A stretch of 64,000 nucleotides of DNA, from the NCBI GenBank assembly GCA_018266295.1, contig JAFEAQ010000011.1:124001-188000 (forward strand), read 5' to 3'. This document shows, in pieces, positions 25,201 to 28,948 of this stretch. The translations under genes were made by a program, and so were the position numbers. The notes under the pieces are model-generated. The model saw nothing but the letters and a program-made list of their open reading frames with translations, was not told the origin of the DNA and did no database searches. This DNA is from Bdellovibrionales bacterium (GTDB taxonomy: Bacteria > Bdellovibrionota > Bdellovibrionia > Bdellovibrionales > Bdellovibrionaceae). How positions within the stretch are numbered: the first letter of the stretch is position 1; each line of letters opens with the position of its first letter.

Positions 25201-26553
25201 ATGAACTTGTTTTCATTAAGAAACGGATTTTGGATGGCGCTGGCGCTGACAGTCTTAGTGGGAAGCGTTTTTGATTTCATCGCGCTTCGCCAGTCGGACA
25301 TAACCGAGAGCACCGGCCAAATGGTCGTTTTGAGCTATCAAGTTATTAATGAAGCCAGCCACATCGATCAAGATTTTGAAAGACTGCAAAGATCACTGAA
25401 ATCTCCCCCCGTTGAATCCGCTCCTTTGATAGAATCCCTAAAAAAGCGTCTTGCAAAACTCCAGACACTGACGGCCGAAAACCCGGCTCAACAGGCCGAG
25501 GTCGCCCGCTTAAACACTCTTCTGCCTCTCAACGAGGACAATGAAGTTCAAGCGCTGTCGCCAGAGCAGCAGTCTTTGATTTTACATAGCCTCAATAAAA
25601 TTGATGAGACAGAAGAAAACCTTCTGAAGGATCGCCTCGAAAGTGATCGAGTACAGAACAATAACGCCCGCATTCAGGTGCTGATTGCGTCGATCGTCGA
25701 TATTCTTTTGCTCGCAATCATAGGGATTGTCTGGGTGCTCTATGCGCGCCATCGCCGCCGCACCGAAAAAACTCTGACTGAAGCTATTCAGTCGATCAGT
25801 AAAGCGAACTTCGAGTTAGAACAAGCAAGTCTTTCTAAAACCCATCTTTTAAAGGCCACGGCTCATGACCTACGAAACCCGCTGGGTTCAATTCAAGGCT
25901 TAGCCGATCTCATCTCTGAAGAGACCTCGCACCCGACTGTCACCGAATTGACAGGTATTATCCGTCAGGTGTCGGCGCAAACTCTGGGGCTTGTGAACCA
26001 GTTGATGGATCCTAAGGCGCTCACAACGGGCAAGCCCTCTCAGCAGGTTGCGGATTTTGATATGGTGAAGTGCATTGAGGACGTCTGCCTTGCCCAACAG
26101 CCGCTGGCCCTGCGCAAGAATCAGCGTATTGTTTTTACCCCTGAAGCAAAGTCACTCATCATGGCAGGTGACAGCAGTAAAATTTGGGATCTTTTCGTCA
26201 ACCTTATCGGCAATGCCGTTAAATTTTCTCCGATCGGCAGCGAGATCACTCTCAGGGCTTTTAAAGAAAATCAGTTTGTCGTTGTTGAAGTTGAGGATCA
26301 GGGCCCTGGGATATCTCCAGAAGATCGCGCCAAAGCATTCCAGAAGTACCAACGCTTGACCGCTCAGCCGACCGCCGGTGAAGCCTCGAGTGGGCTCGGA
26401 CTCTTTTTGGTAAAAGAAATCGTCGATGCTCATGATGGTATCATCGAAATTCAGGACGCCCGCAATGGCAGCGGCGCCCGCTTTATCGTGAAACTGCCGG
26501 CGTCACTTCCGCGTCGTATCAGCCTTGACCCGGGCCCATCGATTGGTATTTAA
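25201..26553 (+). CDS. membrane sensor histidine kinase
   Basis: A 450-residue kinase with two membrane segments (about 10-28 and 160-182) flanking a roughly 130-residue helical extracytoplasmic domain that may be a CHASE3-like four-helix bundle. HisKA has His222 in ATAHDLRNPLG. HATPase follows with an N-box (SKIWDLFVNLIGNAVKFS), DQGPGI and SGLGLFLVKEIV. No receiver domain is attached and no partner regulator gene lies beside it; it may feed the adjacent operon on the other strand. TTAGGAG precedes the ATG. Its 3' end overlaps the convergent DUF2892 gene by 51 bases. Confidence 0.93.
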   Translation: MNLFSLRNGFWMALALTVLVGSVFDFIALRQSDITESTGQMVVLSYQVINEASHIDQDFERLQRSLKSPPVESAPLIESLKKRLAKLQTLTAENPAQQAEVARLNTLLPLNEDNEVQALSPEQQSLILHSLNKIDETEENLLKDRLESDRVQNNNARIQVLIASIVDILLLAIIGIVWVLYARHRRRTEKTLTEAIQSISKANFELEQASLSKTHLLKATAHDLRNPLGSIQGLADLISEETSHPTVTELTGIIRQVSAQTLGLVNQLMDPKALTTGKPSQQVADFDMVKCIEDVCLAQQPLALRKNQRIVFTPEAKSLIMAGDSSKIWDLFVNLIGNAVKFSPIGSEITLRAFKENQFVVVEVEDQGPGISPEDRAKAFQKYQRLTAQPTAGEASSGLGLFLVKEIVDAHDGIIEIQDARNGSGARFIVKLPASLPRRISLDPGPSIGI

Positions 26554-26748
26554 CCCCAGCAAATAGTAAATCGGACAGAAACCGATAATACCTGTCAGAA
26601 GTGGAATCACTCCGATCAAGTACCAGCCGTTAACTTGATTGTTTTGAAACGCGAGAATGCAAAGAACAGTACCGACGACGATTCGGATCCAGCGGTCGAT
26701 GGGATGCAAGTTGATATGCATGTGGGAACGAATAAAGCGCGGTTCCAT
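26503..26748 (-). CDS. DUF2892 (YgaP-like) small inner-membrane protein
   Basis: An 81-residue protein with the DUF2892 pattern: HPIDRWIRIVVGTVLCILAF, then GWYLIGVIPLLTGIIGFCPIYYLLG, i.e. two membrane hairpin segments and the conserved CP motif. DUF2892 also forms the membrane part of YgaP sulfurtransferase, but there is no rhodanese here. The C-terminus is encoded opposite the end of the histidine kinase gene. The family match argues that both overlapping genes are real. Confidence 0.85.
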   Translation of the reverse strand: MEPRFIRSHMHINLHPIDRWIRIVVGTVLCILAFQNNQVNGWYLIGVIPLLTGIIGFCPIYYLLGLNTNRWARVKADTTRK

Positions 26749-26833: not shown

Positions 26834-27418
26834 CTAGTGATCGTGGCTTGGAGCCGCGCACTGGCCTTGGTATTGGCACTTGATCAACATATCACGAAGC
26901 TGCATGAGCTCGCTCAGACTGTTTTCCATATCCATTTCAAAACCGGCTGCTTTTGCACCTTTTGGCGCGATCGCAACGTATTTTTGAACATTGGAAAATT
27001 GCGACTTATCATAGTCGGCTTGATAGTCATGAAGAGCGATATCTTTAGAAAGAGATTTCTGGAAGCGAAGACGTTGATCACGCGCTTTTGCAATAGCGCT
27101 CTTTAAATCTTTCCAGCATTTTACCTCACCAACGAGAACCGCTTTTTTAGTCGTTTTTTCGAAAATAACGACATCTAATTCACCGATGGTGCGAGTGGCA
27201 TCACCGTATTCAATGCCATTGATGATTTCATATTGAGAAGCAGGATAAGCTTTTTGCAATTCAAGGCGAGAAACCTGTTCGCAAACTGTCCCTACGACTT
27301 CGTAGTTAAGACCAGAATCGCGCAATTGCTCAAAGAGATCTTGGATAGGTGCCGCATTGGCAGTGAGAGAAAGAAGAACGAGAACAACAGATAGAACTTG
27401 GGCACGGACAATAGCCAT
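26834..27418 (-). CDS. secreted PD-(D/E)XK-nuclease-like protein
   Basis: A 194-residue exported protein; signal peptide to about residue 22 (LVLLSLTANA). The mature region shows a strand-turn-strand pattern of the restriction-endonuclease-like fold: Glu47 in VCEQVSRLEL, then IGELDVVIF (Glu80, Asp82), 15 residues, and VLVGEVKCW (Glu98-x-Lys100). Acidic residues plus ExK match the metal-binding and catalytic set of PD-(D/E)XK enzymes. A role in degrading DNA outside the cytoplasm, such as prey DNA in the periplasm of a bdelloplast, is inference. The C-terminus is Cys/His-rich (CQYQGQCAAPSHDH). AAGGAG precedes the ATG. Confidence 0.65.
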   Translation of the reverse strand: MAIVRAQVLSVVLVLLSLTANAAPIQDLFEQLRDSGLNYEVVGTVCEQVSRLELQKAYPASQYEIINGIEYGDATRTIGELDVVIFEKTTKKAVLVGEVKCWKDLKSAIAKARDQRLRFQKSLSKDIALHDYQADYDKSQFSNVQKYVAIAPKGAKAAGFEMDMENSLSELMQLRDMLIKCQYQGQCAAPSHDH

Positions 27419-27568
27419 GTCTTTAACTCCTTGTAGTCAAACATTTGCGGTGTTTGGTAGAAACGCCGGGCCTATTCCCGGTATATACAAAGTACTGATC
27501 GCGTCTTAGCAGGCCGAACTCGCGAAGCACAAGTTAAAAAAACCATTATTTGGGATTTTTTGAAAAAA

Positions 27569-28183: not shown

Positions 28184-28948
28184 TTAGCGATAGTTACATT
28201 GGCAGCCAGCTTGAGCCACTTTGCCTGTTTTACCAGACTTTTTGAGCTTAGCGACTTTCTTGATCTCCGCTTTGCACATAGCGATTTCACGCTTGTTAGA
28301 CTTCTTTGTGTTCTTCGCTACTTTTTTGCAATCCACTTTTGATTTCTTGTGAGATGCAATTGCTTTCTTAGATTTTTTAGCGCTGTGCTTAGCAATTTCT
28401 TTTTTAGACTTCTTGCTATGCTTAGCGATTTTCTTTTTGTCATGTTTGCTGCTTTTTGCAACTTTTTTAGACTTCTTCACTGGCATTGGCTTTTCTTCTT
28501 CTTGATAAGAAGGAGTGCTCGTATGCTGGTCCCAAGAAGCGACTTGTTTTTGTGGCAATTCAGTTGGAGGAGTCGTTACTTGCTCCACTTCTGGTGCCAC
28601 TGGCTGTGAGCTAGCATAGAAACTATCAGTTCCAGAAGATGTTGATTCTGGAGCCGCTGCATCCAGTTCTGAAGTTGAACGTTGTTCATTCATTGCATCA
28701 GCTTGAGCTGTTTGGTGCTCAGCTTGTTGAGCCTCCATCGCTGGCTGGCTTGAATCACCGCCCATATCTGGAGAGCTATAAGCTTGGTCTGTTGAAGAAC
28801 CAGCCGGTGCTGTCTGTGCATCCAATGATGGTGATGCATTATCAATAGAAGCTTGATCTTGTTGTTGTTGGCCTTCGCCTCCACCAGTGAGTGTGGCGCA
28901 AGAAACTAGGAAAGCACAGATCGACGCAAGGATAATTGTCATTCTCAT
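28184..28948 (-). CDS. lipoprotein with disordered middle and lysine-rich C-terminal tail
   Basis: A 254-residue lipoprotein: signal segment ending LVSC (lipobox Cys17). Residues 18-150 are Gln/Ser/Ala/Thr-rich and look disordered. Residues about 155-245 are strongly basic, built from repeated KKSKK, KHSKK and KKIAKHS units like histone H1-type tails, with four cysteines near the end. Such a tail would bind nucleic acid or acidic polymers at the cell envelope. Good GAGGGG ribosome site. No family is recognised. Confidence 0.72.
   Translation of the reverse strand: MRMTIILASICAFLVSCATLTGGGEGQQQQDQASIDNASPSLDAQTAPAGSSTDQAYSSPDMGGDSSQPAMEAQQAEHQTAQADAMNEQRSTSELDAAAPESTSSGTDSFYASSQPVAPEVEQVTTPPTELPQKQVASWDQHTSTPSYQEEEKPMPVKKSKKVAKSSKHDKKKIAKHSKKSKKEIAKHSAKKSKKAIASHKKSKVDCKKVAKNTKKSNKREIAMCKAEIKKVAKLKKSGKTGKVAQAGCQCNYR

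Follow-up and report, generated by a model that had tools for sequence, protein, structure and literature searches.

The gene under study appears to encode a PD-(D/E)XK superfamily nuclease that is exported by Sec and stabilised by disulfides. Its most likely job is to degrade DNA outside the cytoplasm of the predator, chiefly DNA of the prey; we put the probability of this reading at about two in three. The gene lies in the window, which is the whole analysed stretch of 64,000 nucleotides from a Bdellovibrionales genome (contig JAFEAQ010000011.1, positions 124,001 to 188,000). The protein is very probably a DNA-cleaving enzyme with the fold of restriction enzymes, exported and held by disulfides; we infer that it is catalytically active and that DNA rather than RNA is its substrate. 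The relevant features are listed below in window coordinates, with conservation counted among 79 homologues.

26834..27418, minus strand: nuclease candidate gene, stop codon included, coding for a 194-amino-acid preprotein (exact open reading frame with an ATG start)
27427..27432, minus strand: AAGGAG, ribosome-binding-like site by sequence, just upstream of the candidate nuclease gene
27353..27418, minus strand: signal-peptide-like segment, residues 1-22, ending A-N-A (heuristic; A22 conserved)
27278..27283, minus strand: C46-E47, first catalytic acid, carried by helix 42-57, with the adjoining invariant cysteine (79 of 79; model)
27173..27184, minus strand: G79-E80-L81-D82, predicted metal-binding Asp motif on strand 77-87 (G79, E80 and D82 in 79 of 79; model)
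27116..27127, minus strand: E98-V99-K100-C101, ExK motif where strand 92-99 ends, plus the second invariant cysteine (79 of 79; model)
27062..27088, minus strand: K111...Q115-x-x-R118-F119 on helix 105-123 (K111 and Q115 in 79 of 79; R118 and F119 in 77 of 79)
26894..27010, minus strand: residues 137-175, C-terminal segment that is N-terminal in a permuted sister family (hhalign)
26858..26878, minus strand: C181 to C187, second pair of cysteines, located at and after the end of helix 168-183 (78 of 79; both absent in homologue L134)

Active site and fold

The homologues of the window type (family A) were assembled as 68 distinct sequences and extended by 11 further members to 79, the window protein included. 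Their start codons were picked near the window gene's own start, with preference for ATG. Residues G43, C46, E47, Y71, G79, E80, D82, E98, V99, K100, C101, K111, Q115, R118, C181, and C187 were invariant in the 68 distinct sequences, and E47, G79-E80-x-D82, E98-V-K100-C101, K111, and Q115 were identical in all 79. The array K111...Q115-x-x-R118-F119 corresponds to a RecB-like QxxxY/F motif. The residues named in the original prediction, Glu47, Glu80-x-Asp82, and Glu98-x-Lys100, are therefore present (as E80-L-D82 and E98-V-K100) and not a product of chance, but they had been assigned to the mature protein, while the positions are those of the precursor. Loss of the ExK pair in orthologues was looked for as a refutation of the nuclease assignment; the pair is kept in every one of the 79.

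An AlphaFold model built from 68 sequences (pLDDT 93.0; pTM 0.85) displays elements in the order alpha-beta-beta-beta-alpha-beta. These are helix 42-57 with E47, strand 63-72, strand 77-87 with D82, strand 92-99 with E98, helix 105-123, and strand 146-151, and K100 is located just past strand 92-99. The proposed strand context of the catalytic residues thus agrees with the model. The mature chain is modelled as a single domain, without leader or repeat domains.

The top rows of a Foldseek search against the PDB were BstEII, BpuSI, 3ijm, EcoT38I, and NucC, with Bax1 and Card1 lower down; the individual matches were weak (best E 4.3e-3, TM about 0.3). VIA-align reported 84 chains with Z of 5 or more, all of them below 8. 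These were headed by the XisH-like protein 2okf (Z 7.8, rmsd 3.3, 102 residues aligned), BsaXI (Z 7.7, rmsd 3.5, 125 aligned), a Hachiman complex (Z 7.2, rmsd 3.8, 157 aligned), and the repair endonuclease 2vld (Z 7.0), with Card1/Can2 also among the top rows. Judging from entry names, we take most of the 50 listed VIA rows, each a weak match, to have the restriction-endonuclease fold.

Family-level searches pointed in the same direction. PADLOC PD_DExK was matched by 40 of the 68 single members (best 8.8e-9), and at E 0.1 or better single members matched the Pfam families DUF6602 (28 of 68), HamA (12 of 68), and NERD (11 of 68), all three of which belong to the PD-(D/E)XK superfamily. For the window protein itself, every Pfam match was below the curated cut-off, and its sequence search against the PDB gave nothing significant (best E 1.4). 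The sole NCBIfam match suggested a beta-lactamase; at E 0.024 it is chance-like and was rejected. Although no single structural match is strong, the structure lists and the weak family matches agree and support a restriction-endonuclease-like core in the modelled protein, as had been predicted.

Inactive members of the PD-(D/E)XK superfamily exist, and the protein might likewise keep the fold for nucleic-acid binding or regulation and no longer cut. Here this is scarcely credible: had activity been lost, the catalytic positions should have decayed, and these are unchanged in 79 of 79 members of family A and in 29 of 29 members of the permuted sister family (family B).

Export and cysteines

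The signal peptide claimed for the protein was recovered by a heuristic based on hydrophobicity and a small-x-small pattern (a criterion other than SignalP), which recognised a signal-peptide-like N terminus in 67 of the 68 family A members. Residues A20-N21-A22 precede the putative cleavage site, A22 is present in 70 of 79 sequences, and the predicted mature chain starts at about residue 23. A lipoprotein nature of family A was considered and rejected, with one lipobox-like match in 68 sequences.

The mature chains contain four cysteines in 72 of the 79 sequences, six in five, five in one, and two in one; the number is thus even in 78 of 79. In the five members with six cysteines, the two additional ones lie near each other in the loop that follows helix 105-123, while the member with two, L134, has lost both C181 and C187 and kept C46 and C101. 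This gain (five cases) and loss (one case) of cysteines in pairs argues for disulfides formed outside the cytoplasm. Since C181 and C187 were lost jointly, the other bond is probably C46-C101, and the simplest pairing suggested by the sequences would be C46-C101 plus C181-C187.

C46 adjoins the catalytic residue E47, and C101 adjoins K100. Going by these positions, a C46-C101 bond would probably tie the helix bearing E47 to the strand bearing E98 and K100. The bond could also act as a compartment lock, so that the active site cannot assemble in the reducing predator cytoplasm and the enzyme gains activity only once it has been exported and oxidised. We regard this as rather doubtful. If true, the lock would mean self-protection of a digestive nuclease without an inhibitor protein, and the permuted sister family would have arrived at the same solution through a different pair of cysteines.

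Distribution and evolution of family A

The window genome contains a second copy of the gene, with 39% identity. One to four copies are present in 33 of the 66 genomes of the same taxonomic family, two to four in most Bdellovibrio genomes (genus g4), and paralogues are located at unlinked sites. In the other 33 of the 66 genomes, homologues were not found. A phylum-wide profile search revealed relatives in 75 of 368 genomes, which were divided by means of a second profile into 48 with family A and 29 with family B, including two with both. The 48 include genome G080, in which the family A match (C9:60942-61193; L115) consists of two separate pieces with a stop and is, on sequence, probably a decayed gene.

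In the phylogenetic tree, the window gene groups with those of G035 and G064 and with one copy each from G026, G009, G024, and G021 (support 97/81). The evidence suggests that G003, with three copies, is B. bacteriovorus HD100, that G009, with four, is strain Tiberius, and that G043, with one, is the epibiotic predator P. exovorus JSS. Two genomes in which no copy was found, G004 and G044, may be Bdellovibrio strain W and Ca. B. qaytius, respectively; the strain W genome is called possibly incomplete in a passage of PMC11656739. The three copies of the putative HD100 genome belong to other clades than the window gene. As homologues were not found in half of the family's genomes, the possible strain W and Ca. 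B. qaytius included, predation does not require the gene.

The dN/dS ratios of 0.015-0.080 obtained for 9 of 14 ortholog pairs, namely those with estimable dS, indicate purifying selection. No relative was found in phage records, plasmid records, or viral contigs. An exact-peptide scan of contigs with a single sequence, which more distant relatives could escape, gave 57 stretches and four relatives, all from Bdellovibrionota.

A circularly permuted sister family

Family B comprises 29 sequences from 29 Bdellovibrionota genomes (e.g., L105:2651-3274 and 28 other loci; alignment A2), and it also extends to other taxonomic families within the phylum. It keeps E127, G161-E162-x-D164, E180-x-K182, Q194, and R197. 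Its invariant cysteines, C35 and C173, form a pair different from those of family A; two cysteines are present in 18 of the sequences, four in ten, and three in one. Signal-like N termini were assigned to all 29, a number biased upward by script-chosen starts that favour hydrophobic stretches.

Comparison of the two profiles by hhalign gave non-colinear matches: residues 23-126 of family A correspond to 99-205 of family B (E 7.9e-22), and residues 117-174 of family A to 19-77 of family B (E 4.5e-6). Two such matches with the order of the parts swapped indicate a circular permutation. When the C-terminal segment of family A and the N-terminal segment of family B were cut out and compared, with borders picked after the hhalign result had been seen, the score was 42.7 (E 7.4e-9). 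In 300 column shuffles this value was never attained (best 17.9), and crossed controls scored about 11.

The AlphaFold model of family B has a pLDDT of 93.2. Foldseek revealed no significant match to this model, and the rows were mostly unrelated proteins, such as NTF2-like and SnoaL-like ones. VIA applied to these Foldseek chains reached Z 4.2 at best, and 13 of the 16 listed rows are, judging by their names, restriction-fold entries. We read the poor PDB matches of the modelled protein as an effect of the permutation, although they can also be taken as weak support for its fold. Together, families A and B offer a natural experiment on how much rearrangement the restriction-enzyme fold tolerates with the active site kept.

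In the vicinity of family B genes, a BolA-like gene occurs in 14 loci and an ABC-F (EttA-like) gene in 16 (both named by eye).

Genomic neighbourhood

The window gene is flanked by a gene for a YgaP-like membrane protein and by a divergent phosphoribosyltransferase gene. In the locus comparison, these neighbours were found beside no family member in other genomes, and only weak matches between histidine kinases link the neighbours of the window gene to loci elsewhere. Other members have constant neighbours of their own; 18 loci, for instance, share a gene that was judged MutL-like by eye. In the putative HD100 genome (L137:5146-7636), one family A copy is located directly before a MutL-like gene. 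The differences in neighbours among members speak against a single partner such as an immunity protein. A scan for promoters and terminators gave nothing usable.

These data bear on the possibility that the protein is a nuclease of the polymorphic-toxin type (Tox-REase-like), directed against competitors or prey. Its motif order G43xxxE47, LD82, E98xK100, Q115 resembles the GxxxE, IxD, ExK, Q given for Tox-REase-7 in a section of PMC3482391, and VIA also listed 4zqu, the structure of a CdiA-CT toxin, at Z 5.5 (rmsd 3.3, 101 aligned). However, the modelled mature chain lacks leader and repeat domains, no conserved neighbour qualifies as an immunity gene (although one unique to the window genome is possible), and no Tox-REase family appears among the Pfam matches (E 0.1 or better) listed for the 68 members. 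We therefore consider a toxin highly improbable.

Two other observations concern the surroundings. The YgaP-like gene (26503-26748, minus strand) overlaps the 3' end of a histidine kinase gene (25201-26553, plus strand) by 51 bases (26503-26553). Near the nuclease gene, positions 28184-28948 (minus strand) encode a lipoprotein-like protein with LVSC near the N terminus and a long lysine-rich tail, which might bind DNA or the cell wall.

Proposed function

According to the proposed mechanism, the unfolded chain would pass the inner membrane by means of the signal peptide, be cut after about A22, and fold in the oxidising periplasm, where the disulfides C46-C101 and C181-C187 would form. Nucleic acid would then be cut with one or two Mg2+ or Mn2+ ions bound by E47, D82, E98, and K100, with Q115 assisting. 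Passage beyond the periplasm, release into the prey, and a digestive role would complete this scheme.

Experimental work on predators leaves room for such an enzyme. As described in parts of PMC3593177, strain HD100 has 20 annotated nucleases, five of them with signal sequences and all of the EndA or SNase type, and a bd1244 bd1934 double mutant showed no obvious change in prey DNA loss. An excerpt of PMC7925074 reports that predation was unaffected when bd0934 and bd3507 were deleted and that DNase activity actually increased; the existence of another, not yet identified extracellular nuclease was allowed for. In the passages searched of a 2025 predation proteome, Bd3507 is the only secreted nuclease named. 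Family A, which is not among the known exported predator nucleases, is thus a candidate for the enzymes that digest prey DNA, and it fits the gap left by the dispensable ones. It narrows the search to a few genes (three of them in the putative HD100 genome) of a kind absent from the published nuclease table, so that the question of prey DNA degradation becomes directly testable by multiple deletion.

A periplasmic housekeeping nuclease, which trims or scavenges periplasmic DNA (competence, biofilm DNA, phage DNA) instead of digesting prey, is a less probable though serious alternative. The evidence for export of family A reaches the periplasm at most, and family B is present in other families of the phylum, whatever their life style. 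Also, in the portion of PMC3593177 that deals with them, two exported nucleases of HD100 that are induced by contact with prey affected biofilms and not visible prey DNA loss. On the other hand, the expansion of the family in most Bdellovibrio genomes, to between two and four copies, fits digestion better than housekeeping. The single copy in the probable epibiotic P. exovorus JSS and the absence of one in the possible Ca. B. qaytius point the same way, in tiny numbers and with genome size as a confounder. Digestion of prey DNA remains our preferred reading.

Comparison with known systems

The original prediction regarded such nucleases as normally cytoplasmic. This is not always so: exported restriction-fold toxin domains are tabulated in PMC3482391, which in the relevant section names several export routes, Sec/T2SS included. 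Since these toxins are already known, an exported restriction-fold nuclease is not new as such. Our literature searches revealed no earlier description of a free-standing, Sec-exported, disulfide-equipped predator family with a permuted twin.

With the PD-(D/E)XK superfamily (NucC, Card1/Can2, HamA, NERD, DUF6602, and type II restriction enzymes), family A shares the predicted core fold and the set of E, D, ExK, and Q. It differs from the named families by two conserved pairs of cysteines and by an N terminus that resembles a signal peptide. The Tox-REase domains, as presented in parts of PMC3482391, are likewise exported restriction-fold nucleases, with a similar motif order in Tox-REase-7. 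Unlike these, family A is a free-standing single domain, has no immunity-like neighbour at the window gene, and its paralogues are unlinked.

Predicted Sec export and a proposed role in extracytoplasmic DNA work are shared with Bd0934, Bd1244, and Bd3507 (EndA type) and with Bd1431 and Bd1934 (SNase type). Searches of the window genome with these two families gave one EndA-type match and two SNase-type matches, located at other places than the window gene, and for the window protein no match to Pfam Endonuclease_1 or SNase was listed at E up to 5. Family A is thus a protein family other than that of the exported EndA and SNase nucleases of Bdellovibrio.
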